From NCBI RefSeq assembly GCF_038637725.1, contig NZ_CP152052.1, forward strand, positions 3,021,501 through 3,085,500: a stretch of 64,000 nt of DNA. Direction: 5' to 3'. The position numbers and the translations under genes were made by a program. Source of the DNA: Psychrobacillus sp. FSL H8-0483. GTDB taxonomy: Bacteria; Bacillota; Bacilli; Bacillales_A; Planococcaceae. The notes beneath the pieces were generated by a model that saw only the letters and a list, made by a program, of their open reading frames with translations, did no database searches and had not been told where the DNA came from. How positions within the stretch are numbered: the stretch's first letter is position 1; every line of letters begins with the position of its first letter. Shown here one piece after another: positions 1 through 3,693 of the stretch.

Positions 1-639
1 AAGTGCAGCTTTCATGAATCCTGCAGGAGGAATGATGATACCAGCTTCTCCTTGAATTGGTTCAATTAAGAAAGCAGCTGTATTTGGAGTAATCGCAGCT
101 TTAAGCGCTTCAAGATCACCATAAGGAATTAATTTGATACCTGGAAGCATTGGTCCGAATCCACGTTTGTATTCAGGGTCTGATGATAGAGATACTGCAC
201 CCATTGTGCGGCCATGGAAGTTCCCATTACATGCAATCACTTCTGCTTGATCTGCTTCCACACCTTTTACATCATATGCCCAACGACGAGCAGCTTTGAA
301 AGCAGTCTCAACTGCTTCAGCACCAGTATTCATTGGTAATACCATTTCTTTACCAGTTAATTCACTTACTTTTTCATACCAAGGACCTAATTGGTCATTA
401 TGGAATGCACGAGAAGTTAAAGTAACTCGATCTGCTTGATCTTTCAATGCTTGAATAATTTTTGGATGACGATGCCCTTGGTTTACTGCAGAATACGCAG
501 AAAGCATATCCATAAATTTATTGCCTTCAGGATCTTTTACCCAAACACCTTCCGCTTCTGAAACAACGATTGGAAGTGGATTATAGTTATTAGCACCAAA
601 TTTTTCAGTTTGTTCAATCACTTTTTGTGAAATAGTCAT
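1..639 (-). CDS. rocD: Ornithine aminotransferase, N-terminal part (runs off the window)
   Basis: PLP-dependent ornithine--2-oxoacid transaminase, converting ornithine to glutamate-5-semialdehyde in arginine catabolism. Only the first 213 codons are present. The N-terminus ([19 protein letters not shown]) and the class-III aminotransferase segment around [17 protein letters not shown] match RocD. The PLP lysine lies beyond the window edge and cannot be checked. The ATG at 637-639 has AAAGGAG about 9 nt upstream. It lies downstream of rocA on the same strand with a 69-nt gap, so the two are probably cotranscribed and act consecutively: RocD makes the semialdehyde that RocA oxidises. Confidence 0.93.
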
Positions 640-708: not shown

Positions 709-2253
709 TTAAAGCATTTCAGAAGTTGTTTTTGCTTGCATATGAAGTCCGATATAGTCTGGACCACCTGCTTTTGAATCTGTACCTGACATATTAAATC
801 CACCGAATGGTTGGTATCCAACAATTGCACCAGTACATCCACGGTTAAAGTAAAGGTTACCTACGTGGAAGTCTTCACGAGCTTTTTCTAAATTCATGCG
901 GTTATTAGTTATAACAGCACCAGTTAAGCCGTATTCAGTGTTGTTAGCAATTTCGATTGCTTCGTCGAAATCTTTAGCTTTTGTAATACCTACAACTGGA
1001 CCAAAGATTTCTTCTTGCATAATACGAGCTGTTGGAGATAGGTCAGCAATTACTGTTGGTTGAATGAAGAAACCTTTTGAATCATCACCAGTACCACCTG
1101 TAACAAGGCGACCTTCTCCTTTACCGATTTCGATATAGCTCATAATTTTTTTGAAAGAAGCACCATCGATAACTGGACCAACAAAGTGTTCGTCGTTATC
1201 AGGAACACCAACTGATAAAGCGTTAGTTAACTCTTCTACACGATTTACTACTTGATCATATACATCTTCAACGATTACAGCGCGTGAACAAGCAGAACAT
1301 TTTTGTCCACTAAATCCAAATGCTGATTTCACGATAGATTGAGCAGCTAATTCTAAATCTGCTTCTTTATCTACAACGATTGTATCTTTACCGCCCATTT
1401 CAAGGATTGTACGTTTAATCCAAATTTGACCATCAGATAATTTAGATGATTTTTCTACGATTCCTAAACCTACATCACGTGAACCTGTGAAGCTGATTAA
1501 ACGTGTACGTGGGTGTTCAACTAGGAAGTCACCAATTTCAGCACCTGAACCAGGGATGAAGTTAACAACACCAGCAGGCATTCCAGCTTCTTCTAATACT
1601 TCGATAAATTTATAAGCAACTACTGGAGTAGTTGAAGCTGGTTTAAGTAAAACTGTATTACCAGCTACCATAGCAGCTACAGCTGTACCAGCCATAATTG
1701 CAAACGGGAAGTTCCATGGTGAAATAACAACTGTTACTCCTAGTGGAATATAGTCATAACGATTGTATTCGCCTGGACGGCTTTCTACTGGTTGACCATC
1801 TTTCAAACGAAGCATTTGACGACCATAATATTCAAGGAAATCGATCGCTTCAGCAGCTTCTACATCCGCCTCAACCCAAGTTTTACCTGCTTCTTTAGAT
1901 AATAATGCAGAGAATTCAAATTTACGACGACGCATAATTGCTGCAGCTTTGAAAAGAACGTCAGCACGCACTTCTGGTTTTACTTTTTTCCAAGTGTTGA
2001 AAGTTTCATCTGCAATATCCATTGCTTTTGCAGCAATTTCTTTTGAAGCTTTAGATACAGAACCTACAACTTGCTCTTTGTTTGCTGGATTATAAGAAAC
2101 AATTTTGCTTTCTGTTGTAATTCTTTCTCCACCAACGATTAATGGATACTCATCACCTAAGTATGCTTCTACTACTTTATAGCCTTCTTTAATTGCTTTT
2201 TTATTTTCTTCTTTCGAAAAGTCTGTGAATGCTTCATGTTTATAAGGTATCAT
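709..2253 (-). CDS. rocA: 1-pyrroline-5-carboxylate (glutamate-gamma-semialdehyde) dehydrogenase
   Basis: NAD-dependent aldehyde dehydrogenase oxidising glutamate-5-semialdehyde to glutamate, the last step of arginine, ornithine and proline degradation. At 514 aa it has the usual RocA length. Visible motifs are the ALDH N-terminal fold ([11 protein letters not shown], about 179-189), the general base Glu in LEMGGK (about 285) and the nucleophile Cys in GQKCSAC (about 319). A strong SD (AAAGGAGG) lies 6-7 nt before the ATG. The gene is divergent from a RocR-like regulator across about 130 bp and probably heads a rocA-rocD operon. I found no full -24/-12 sigma-54 promoter upstream, only an isolated TTTTGCAT that resembles a -12 half. 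Confidence 0.95.
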
Positions 2254-2388
2254 GTAAATCCTCCTTTAATTGTTAGAGCAAAAAAAATTTGCGCTTTTAA
2301 TTCAATTACATATATAATAATGCAAAAGATTATTGCGTTAATCAAGTAAAATATTCTAAAATCACAATTTTTTTTCGAGGTGAGCCAA

Positions 2389-3693
2389 ATGACTAACACT
2401 ATGGATAATCTTCTTCCTTTTTATAAATTTGCAACAGAGCAAGTGACTGTAGGGATCCACGCCGTCGACATCTTGGGTAAAACAATCATTTATAATGAAA
2501 AAATGAAAGAAATTGAAGGACTAAATTCTGTAGACGTGGTCGACCGTTCCATTCTGGAGGTTTTTCAATTTGAGCAACAAGAAAGTACATTACTCAAAGT
2601 GTTGCATAGTGGCAAGCCAGTATTACGTGTTAAACAAACCTATTGGAATCGAAATGGACAAGAAATTACTACGATTAATGATACATACCCCGTTTTTGAA
2701 CAAGGTAACCTGATTGGTGCGATTGAGTTCTCCCGAGATATCACCACATTAGAAAGACTTATTTTTCAACCTTTAAAAAGGAACAGCGAAGCGATAACAC
2801 TCTCCACGATTGCCGCAGAATCTCAATTAATGAAAGAAGTAAAAGAACGTTCGCTGAAAGCTGCCCATGTTCGAATGCCTGTCCTTTTAATAGGAGAAGC
2901 TGGTACAGGGAAGGATTTAATTGCTGAAGCTATTCACAATCAACTTTCTCCGACTAATGAACAATTTATTAACCTTCCTTGCCATAGTTCAGATGATCAC
3001 TTTATTAATAAATTTGAACAAGAACTTTTACATCTATCTAACTGCACTATATTCTGTGAAAGAATCGACTTATTATCCATTGACTTACAAAATAAGCTTT
3101 TACAAATCCTAATGGAAAATAGAGATCAAAATCTATATATCGCAAGTATAGGACAGGATCCAATCGATTTAGTTTATCAAAATCAATTAAGTAAAGAACT
3201 GTACTATTATTTTGCGACTATGACGATTAATATTCCGCCACTTAGGTACAGAACGGATGATATTTTACCTATCATACATGATTATTTTCATCGTTATTTA
3301 AATCGTTATGGTTCGACCATTCAAGAGGTTGAAGATGAAGTAATCCAAGCGTTCTTAACCTATGAGTGGCCAGGGAATTTAAAAGAACTAGAGCTACTTT
3401 TAGATGAAATCAGCTCTATGATCACAACGGAAAGTATTTTAAAATTTGATATGCTCCCTCTACACTTTAAATTGAAGGTTCAGGATTTTAATGAAACCTC
3501 TAAAAAAGCAGAGGATTTTGTTATCTCCCCCGATAAAGAATTACTTCCTTTGGATGAATATTTAAGAGAAGCGGAATTTTATTATTTACAAAAAGCAATG
3601 GAAAAATACGATAGCAATATTACAAAGGCTGCGGAAGCTTTGGGGATGAGTCGCCAAAATTTACAATATCGCTTACGGAAAATGAAAAAGTAA
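2389..3693 (+). CDS. RocR-like PAS/AAA/Fis-HTH regulator lacking the GAFTGA loop
   Basis: Probable regulator of the divergent rocA-rocD genes. Order: PAS domain (about 10-120), AAA+ domain (about 130-360), C-terminal Fis-type HTH (about 390-434, ITKAAEALGMSRQNLQYRL). Walker A is intact (GEAGTGKD, about 169-176). The sigma-54 contact segment that normally contains GAFTGA is absent: Walker A and the Walker B position are about 50 residues apart, against about 66 in NtrC. Walker B reads IFCERI instead of LFLDEI, and the sensor-II GNVRE is GNLKE. So the sequence looks like an enhancer-binding protein that cannot engage sigma-54, comparable to TyrR. GTG at 2380 is in frame, but GAGGTGA at 2377-2383 sits 5 nt before ATG 2389, which I chose. 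Confidence 0.85.
   Translation: MTNTMDNLLPFYKFATEQVTVGIHAVDILGKTIIYNEKMKEIEGLNSVDVVDRSILEVFQFEQQESTLLKVLHSGKPVLRVKQTYWNRNGQEITTINDTYPVFEQGNLIGAIEFSRDITTLERLIFQPLKRNSEAITLSTIAAESQLMKEVKERSLKAAHVRMPVLLIGEAGTGKDLIAEAIHNQLSPTNEQFINLPCHSSDDHFINKFEQELLHLSNCTIFCERIDLLSIDLQNKLLQILMENRDQNLYIASIGQDPIDLVYQNQLSKELYYYFATMTINIPPLRYRTDDILPIIHDYFHRYLNRYGSTIQEVEDEVIQAFLTYEWPGNLKELELLLDEISSMITTESILKFDMLPLHFKLKVQDFNETSKKAEDFVISPDKELLPLDEYLREAEFYYLQKAMEKYDSNITKAAEALGMSRQNLQYRLRKMKK

Follow-up and report, generated by a model that had tools for sequence, protein, structure and literature searches.

The regulator encoded next to rocA in the window (the 64-kb stretch of DNA analysed here) is a RocR-type protein, termed RocR2, that lacks the GAFTGA motif and several other parts of the sigma-54-activating motor. 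Comparison of sequences strongly supports an action of RocR2 that is independent of sigma-54, and makes it quite probable that an enhancer-binding activator, RocR, was converted in this lineage into a sigma-54-independent repressor embedded in the rocA promoter.

Motor residues and conservation of the regulator

The features identified in and around the gene are listed in Table 1. Translation could begin at ATG 2389 (434 amino acids) or at GTG 2380 (437 amino acids), and the ATG is favoured because the GTG falls inside GAGGTGAG, the Shine-Dalgarno-like stretch that precedes it. RocR2 has the features of a RocR, namely the PAS-AAA+-Fis-type helix-turn-helix architecture and the roc gene neighbourhood, and two stretches of its PAS sensor (VGIHAVD..GKTIIYN and VKQTY.N..G.EITT) are common to the consensus of GAFTGA-less and GAFTGA-bearing RocRs, which suggests that both types may respond to related effectors. 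The AlphaFold model of RocR2 (mean pLDDT 80.6; 70-93 per ten-residue block in the AAA+ part) matched NtrX, 1ojl, LuxO, NtrC1 and PspF in the PDB (Foldseek, E-values 8e-16 to 1e-11); because the model still resembles the AAA+ domains of sigma-54 activators, the fold appears to be kept and the motor parts not. The predicted structure of a GAFTGA-bearing RocR was poor (mean pLDDT 60.5) and was left out of the comparison.

Table 1. Features of the rocA-rocR2 region (positions within the window)
Feature	Position	Strand	Basis
rocA, L-glutamate gamma-semialdehyde (P5C) dehydrogenase; divergent, presumed target	709..2253	-	NCBIfam NF002852, TIGR01237 above cut-off
Operator O2, 44 bp from O1; in predicted rocA 5' UTR, overlaps possible rocR2 -35	2278..2292		
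Possible rocR2 promoter TTGCGC-18-TATAAT; -35 in O2, O1 right after -10	2289..2318	+	
Inferred sigma-A-type rocA promoter TTGATT-17-CATTAT; -35 at 2345-2340, -10 at 2322-2317	2317..2345	-	
Operator O1, GCAA-N7-TTGC; within -35/-10 spacer of inferred rocA promoter	2322..2336		
RocR2, RocR-type PAS/AAA+/HTH regulator without GAFTGA	2389..3693	+	ORF; Pfam Sigma54_activ_2, AAA_lid_14, HTH_8, PAS
N-terminal PAS sensor, residues 17-125	2428..2754	+	Pfam PAS_4 above cut-off; PAS_9 and PAS slightly below theirs
Degenerate AAA+ domain and lid, residues 145-369	2812..3486	+	Pfam; AlphaFold; PDB matches
Walker A GEAGTGKD, retained	2893..2916	+	Sequence
Stretch without loop L1/GAFTGA, about 15 residues shorter	2980..3045	+	Alignment
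Degenerate Walker B TIFCERI, aligns with TLLLDEI (D to E, E to R)	3046..3066	+	Alignment
Stretch with loop L2 (pre-sensor I) about 10 residues shorter	3067..3150	+	Alignment
LSKELYYYF in place of the canonical arginine-finger stretch LRKDLYYRL; neither Arg present	3187..3213	+	Alignment
Sensor II GNLKE, canonical GN[VI]RE	3373..3387	+	Alignment
Fis-type helix-turn-helix	3562..3681	+	Pfam HTH_8 2.7e-10

The first-pass annotation of this DNA had described a protein with Walker A kept, a Walker B of IFCERI, a sensor II of GNLKE and about 50 residues between Walker A and Walker B. These readings are correct, although the Walker B is better described as a replacement of DE by ER. In an alignment of 41 GAFTGA-less sequences from the family with 25 GAFTGA-bearing RocRs (including the variants GSFTGA, GAFSGA, GAFTDA and GAFPGA), 48-50 residues (median 50) separate the Walker A Lys from the position of the Walker B Glu in the former, against 65 in all 25 of the latter. 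A second loss, overlooked in that annotation, is the deletion of loop L2: Walker B and sensor I are 29-31 residues apart in the GAFTGA-less sequences and 41 apart in the GAFTGA-bearing ones. Arg occupies the position of the catalytic Walker B Glu in all 41 family members aligned, the D position holds E in 37, D in three and V in one, the sensor I Asn is replaced by Gly in 41 of 41, and the sensor II Arg by Lys in 36. None of the 41 has Arg at either finger position (assigned, by analogy with PspF-type AAA+ domains, to the stretch given in Table 1), compared with Arg at both in 25 of the 25 GAFTGA-bearing RocRs. The set of GAFTGA, Walker B DE, sensor I Asn and Arg fingers that characterises a functional sigma-54 enhancer-binding protein was thus not found in these family members. 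The Walker A Lys is present in 35 of the 41 sequences and lost in six, being replaced by Ile in L058, L059, L090, L117 and L118 and by Thr in L070; these branches, which include Kurthia zopfii and Lysinibacillus capsici, may have abnormal ATP binding.

No GAFTGA-like motif was detected in any of the 62 distinct family loci (67 loci, deduplicated), which bears out the reported absence of the loop and eliminates the frameshift or assembly error that had been named as a possible cause. Of 15 close pairs, 14 differ; the ratio dN/dS was 0.01-0.08 in these 14, and was also low for the AAA+ domain where dS was computable. Given this constraint and the agreement among the 62 loci, the missing motif reflects neither assembly error nor decay. 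Within the family (Planococcaceae, the Caryophanaceae of NCBI), the regulator was matched in 256 of 261 genomes at 1e-20 and in 249 at 1e-50, an order-level search covering the same 261 genomes. The GAFTGA-less type occurs in 243 of the 261, a class set by E-value and confirmed for the loop in the fetched loci; the six of the 249 genomes left out carry the GAFTGA-bearing type alone by E-value (1e-71 to 1e-75). Frames were broken in three fetched family loci (L031, L054 and L063). Sequences from Planococcus, Sporosarcina, Bhargavaea, Kurthia and Lysinibacillus group among the members of the window family (f1) in the tree.

The predicted rocA promoter and its operators

The -35 and -10 elements of the inferred rocA promoter agree with the consensus at 8 of 12 positions (by eye) and were missed by a generic promoter scan, as was the possible rocR2 promoter, which has a weak -35. 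Transcription of rocA would start at about position 2310, with O2 downstream of it by some 19-33 bp. Within the window, exact GCAA-N7-TTGC sites occur at O1 and O2 and nowhere else; since a mean of 1.33 sites is expected by chance, their weight rests on paired conservation and not on their count.

The pattern TTG-N3-N17-CANNAT was found upstream of rocA in all 56 distinct loci that have rocA alongside; some of its positions also served as the search criterion, and at these the conservation is in part a matter of selection, though none of the 56 loci lacked it. O1 showed no mismatch in 46 of these loci, one in eight, two in one and four in one, and lay inside the spacer in 55 when up to two mismatches were allowed. 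O2 was exact in 52 and had one mismatch in four, and the spacing between the operators was 43-45 bp in 56 of 56. Uncounted among the 62 loci were L058 (contig end) and L059 (no close rocA called), both of which also show the promoter element, with one operator mismatch, as well as L061, L070, L071 and L087 (no rocA alongside). These last four represent one genus, in which the GAFTGA-less regulator gene lies away from rocA; in L061, L070 and L071 the regulator is followed by an apparent PutP-type sodium/proline symporter, with no divergent rocA (by eye). Across 24 representatives less than 80% identical, chosen from 61 aligned, conservation peaked at TTG, O1, CAnnAT and O2 (1.5-2.2 bits), against 0.3-0.65 bits in the flanks and operator middles. 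The same pattern upstream of rocA was seen within the window genus in both rpoN-less (L011, L017, L018, L025, L026) and rpoN-bearing (L010, L012, L015) loci. In 42 of the 56 loci, but not in the other 14, a possible rocR2 promoter of the form TTG-N3-16..19-TATAAT lies between the two operators; without a fixed position it was counted in 46.

The statement in the first-pass annotation that no full -24/-12 promoter precedes rocA also holds. The best score within 260 bp upstream was 6 of 11 consensus positions, and TGGCAYN5TTGCW, with up to one mismatch, gave four matches in the window and none near rocA; a cryptic -24/-12 promoter at the window rocA was rejected on these grounds. A sigma-54 promoter here, named beforehand as the observation that would contradict a change of mechanism, was thus looked for and not seen. 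The 56 family loci scored 6-9 of 11, with 9 reached in L044, L055 and L056 (260-bp scan; two of these three best scores sit more than 220 bp upstream), and three GAFTGA loci with rocA scored 9, 10 and 10 on the same scan.

The contrast with the GAFTGA-bearing loci extends to the upstream pattern TGG[CT]A-N6-TTGC, which was absent from all 48 GAFTGA-less RocR rows and occurred in 18 of 25 GAFTGA-bearing ones, or in 19 of the 25 when a longer stretch was scanned (not in L199, L202, L204, L206, L209 and L211). When one mismatch per operator was allowed, 24 of the 25 GAFTGA-bearing loci had one or more operators upstream (none in L081), a tolerance at which some single matches may be due to chance. 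Pairs 41-45 bp apart, with at most one mismatch in each operator, were found in 12 of the 25, and in six loci (L075-L078, L207 and L210) the pair lies upstream of the -24/-12 element. Because the GAFTGA-bearing loci carry the same operators, O1 and O2 look inherited from an enhancer pair, and a sigma-A-type promoter now looks to surround one of the two ancestral enhancer sites. In family f6, a promoter of the O1 type was seen in L204 (GAFTGA intact) and L206 (GAFPGA) and a -24/-12 element was not, so the coupling of loop loss to promoter type is not absolute; this separate branch perhaps represents a second independent start of the same transition.

The exact operator pair occurred in 20 of the 24 genomes searched, at one place in 17 and at more in three, against 0 of 24 for the reversed-pattern control; two places were found in G610 and G438, and zero in G007, G255, G390 and G370. 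In the window genome the pairs lie at rocA and at two overlapping places in a repeat (C1:1044774-1044872, L225), in which operator-like pairs (GCAAGATAGAATTGC) happen to occur. A wider regulon was also sought in the window genome: TTGN6GCAAN7TTGCANNAT was exact once, at rocA, and with up to two mismatches gave 70 places versus 21 for the reversed control; of the near-matches, all five with one mismatch and one of those with two were inspected (open reading frames), and none made a persuasive roc target. As a search pattern, TGCAAN7TTGCA alone, with one mismatch allowed, was rejected as too common. Upstream of rocA in L053 and L055, ATGTAAACGTTACCA and ATGTAAACGTAAACA lie between O1 and O2 (noted in the matches for G228 and G197); they fit the CcpA cre consensus, so that catabolite control may overlay the rocA promoter in these two loci.

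Descent of RocR2 and the occurrence of rpoN

In quick IQ-TREE trees, a single branch set every GAFTGA-less RocR row apart from the other rows, with SH-aLRT support of 99 (77 rows) and 99.8 (59 rows, leaving out 15 RocR rows and three of the four outgroup rows of the 77). RocR2 was nested in these trees among GAFTGA-bearing RocRs, which identifies it as a RocR by descent, the GAFTGA-bearing rows, with no B. subtilis row among them, having been named RocR by similarity and roc neighbours. The rooting is not firm, because the long-branched outgroup rows fall among the GAFTGA-bearing rows.

The GAFTGA-less group extends beyond the family to Rossellomorea marisflavi (L120, Bacillaceae) and to genomes of f29, f37 and f38. 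In L120 and three f29 rows, GAFTGA was lost by replacement and both Arg fingers are kept; the f29 rows keep the Walker B DE and have lost the sensor I Asn, and L120 has N for D and keeps the Asn. The sigma-A/O1 element is present in L120, L192, L194, L196 and L197, and a good element was not seen at the f37 relatives L193 and L195, which lack GAFTGA. All six f29, f37 and f38 genomes searched have rpoN. On this reading, the loss of the loop and the change of promoter would have preceded the loss of Walker B, of the Arg fingers and of rpoN.

The window genome has rpoN, as do 152 of the 261 family genomes (PF04552, the DNA-binding domain, at E<=0.001; 148 above the cut-off); it was undetected in the other 109 by the same search, absence from the match list being taken as rpoN-less. 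The GAFTGA-less regulator is kept in 104 of the 109 rpoN-less and in 139 of the 152 rpoN-bearing genomes (handles compared by eye), and all 12 family genomes with a fetched GAFTGA-bearing RocR have rpoN. Both distributions, as well as the contrast in TGG[CT]A-N6-TTGC and the operator inside a sigma-A-type element, agree with the earlier proposal that roc control moved away from sigma-54.

The gene for the GAFTGA-bearing RocR lies about 1 kb from rpoN in at least eight of those 12 genomes (loci L072-L080, e.g. G018, G237 and G248), and in L072, L079 and L080 it adjoins a further rocA gene (about 60% identity) that has a -24/-12 promoter. G282 (L198) has a GAFTGA-bearing RocR and a -24/-12 element, yet no rpoN match, which may reflect an assembly gap or a recent loss. 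Of the enhancer-binding proteins encoded by the window genome, L001 and L002 bear GAFTGA, whereas two further ones, both encoded outside the window, lack it despite the presence of rpoN: L003 (C1:2979561-2980049), which adjoins an apparent 3-oxoacid CoA-transferase subunit (by eye), and L004 (C1:2580930-2581418).

Mode of action and relation to known regulators

At the level of sequence, RocR2 has lost both sigma-54-contact loops and the ATP-hydrolysis residues; the PAS domain, the Fis-type helix-turn-helix and the RocR-type operators persist, and the protein is under strong purifying selection. In the mechanism that we propose, a dimer or higher oligomer of RocR2, perhaps with ATP bound only, would occupy O1 and O2 and, once bound, would occlude the sigma-A promoter in front of rocA and probably also the divergent promoter of rocR2 itself. 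Binding of arginine, ornithine, citrulline or a proline-pathway effector by the PAS domain would then cause RocR2 to leave or to change shape. An inducible enhancer-dependent activator would thereby have become a repressor relieved by its inducer, with rocA as the main target. Repression is suggested by the position of O1 within the 17-bp spacer and of O2 downstream of the inferred start.

RocR2 might instead stimulate sigma-A RNA polymerase in the manner of TyrR or VpsR, by contact or by a MerR-style distortion of the spacer, its AAA+ domain merely binding ATP. In favour of this, the window rocA -35 and -10 are weak by consensus; the accessible part of PMC9245794 describes canonical RocR as an activator induced by Arg, Orn and Cit, and that of PMC10274813 an R. 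capsulatus NtrC without GAFTGA that activates via sigma-70 and a VpsR without GAFTGA that regulates sigma-70 promoters. However, O1 exactly in the 17-bp spacer and O2 past the inferred start form a layout typical of repression, and activation by RocR2 seems possible but unlikely. A 17-bp spacer also makes the MerR-type variant less likely, since such activation operates on spacers of 19-20 bp.

A surviving link to sigma-54, whether direct or via mixed oligomers that include a GAFTGA-bearing enhancer-binding protein, would be compatible with the rpoN, L001 and L002 of the window genome, and in the section available of PMC12421884, Caulobacter NtrC mutants without GAFTGA alter some sigma-54 genes. 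It is nevertheless very improbable, as 104 of the 109 genomes in which rpoN was not detected retain the regulator, the window rocA lacks a -24/-12 element, and rpoN-less congeners show the same rocA promoter pattern. Least probable of all is that the degenerate ATPase motifs and the three broken frames mark RocR2 as a decaying relic without function, in view of dN/dS values of 0.01-0.08, its presence in 243 of the 261 family genomes by E-value class and the conserved operators that adjoin its gene.

RocR2 departs in several respects from the canonical RocR of B. subtilis and B. thuringiensis, with which it has the PAS-AAA+-Fis helix-turn-helix architecture and the roc neighbourhood in common (a comparison of properties given in the available text of PMC9245794 and PMC4428206, and not of the sequences themselves). 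RocR2 lacks GAFTGA/L1, L2 and the Arg fingers and has ER for DE, and its operators lie inside a sigma-A-type promoter, whereas those of canonical RocR lie upstream of a -24/-12 element; common descent and the same operators nonetheless unite RocR2 with the GAFTGA-bearing RocRs. B. subtilis RocR drives rocABC, rocDEF and rocG (PMC4348106, in the portion consulted), whereas at most one exact operator pair was found in 21 of the 24 genomes searched for RocR2 sites. Point mutations can activate a cryptic SigA-type promoter before B. subtilis rocDEF, as stated in the accessible part of PMC9245794.

The comparison with TyrR drawn in the first-pass annotation is fair as a functional analogy, given that RocR2 has no GAFTGA and that its operators, at the level of sequence, overlap a housekeeping-type promoter; by descent it fails, RocR2 being a RocR. 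TyrR, DhaR and HupR are reported as sigma-70 dependent in the available part of Francke 2011 (PMC3162934), and these proteins and VpsR resemble RocR2 as bEBP homologues in which GAFTGA has undergone substitution or deletion. Set against their descriptions rather than by alignment, RocR2 has in addition lost Walker B, the Arg fingers and L2, and it differs in sensor, target and descent and in having living intermediates. The NtrC proteins of Rhodobacter capsulatus and Caulobacter share with RocR2 a lineage-wide L1 deletion and sigma-70 promoters; they are, however, response regulators, and Caulobacter NtrC is predicted still to hydrolyse ATP (PMC10274813, in the same accessible part). RocR2, by contrast, has other residues at the positions needed for hydrolysis, and its ancestral enhancer sites seem to have been turned into promoter operators. 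Loss of GAFTGA within Bacillota is not itself new, as B. subtilis YplP, a different gene likened here by description, is a bEBP homologue with a GAFTGA deletion (PMC3162934, in the part available), and GAFTGA-less bEBP homologues at sigma-70 promoters are already known from the sections consulted of PMC3162934, PMC10274813 and PMC12421884. Among the titles and starts of abstracts listed in searches of open-licence papers, none concerned a GAFTGA-less RocR or a repressor role for it in Planococcaceae.

We lean slightly towards a broader scenario, in which this pseudo-ATPase repressor arose in one lineage with surviving intermediates, a sigma-A promoter being built around the ancestral enhancer pair, the enhancers becoming operators and the sign of regulation being reversed, as one step in a more general abandonment of sigma-54 by Planococcaceae, in the course of which GAFTGA disappeared from several enhancer-binding proteins and these survived the loss of the sigma factor. 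RocR2 would then provide a worked case of how bacteria may exit sigma-54 control, in the proposed order of contact loop first, ATPase motor next and, in many genomes, rpoN last; the sensor, the DNA-binding domain and the DNA sites would persist, the sites being reused as operators. The f29 and Rossellomorea relatives retain most ATPase residues, and the f29 genomes retain rpoN; the steps of the transition are testable in such living relatives. The label "sigma-54-dependent regulator" is probably wrong for RocR2 members family-wide.

Other enhancer-binding proteins of the family were compared in the same respect. Of 20 rpoN-less family genomes, 16 have PF00158 proteins at 1e-15, and none of the 30 proteins fetched from 31 matches (L232-L261) contains GAFTGA. 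Among 10 rpoN-bearing genomes (L262-L291), GAFTGA was found in 18 of 28 readable proteins and GAFSGA in three more, in a sample of 30 of 46 matches fetched with the best per genome first, which may favour GAFTGA. In genus g12, a protein of 683 amino acids carries GAFTGA in the rpoN-bearing G070 and G077 (L277 and L268), and DAFAGA or DAFVGA in the rpoN-less G075 and G076 (L232 and L233).
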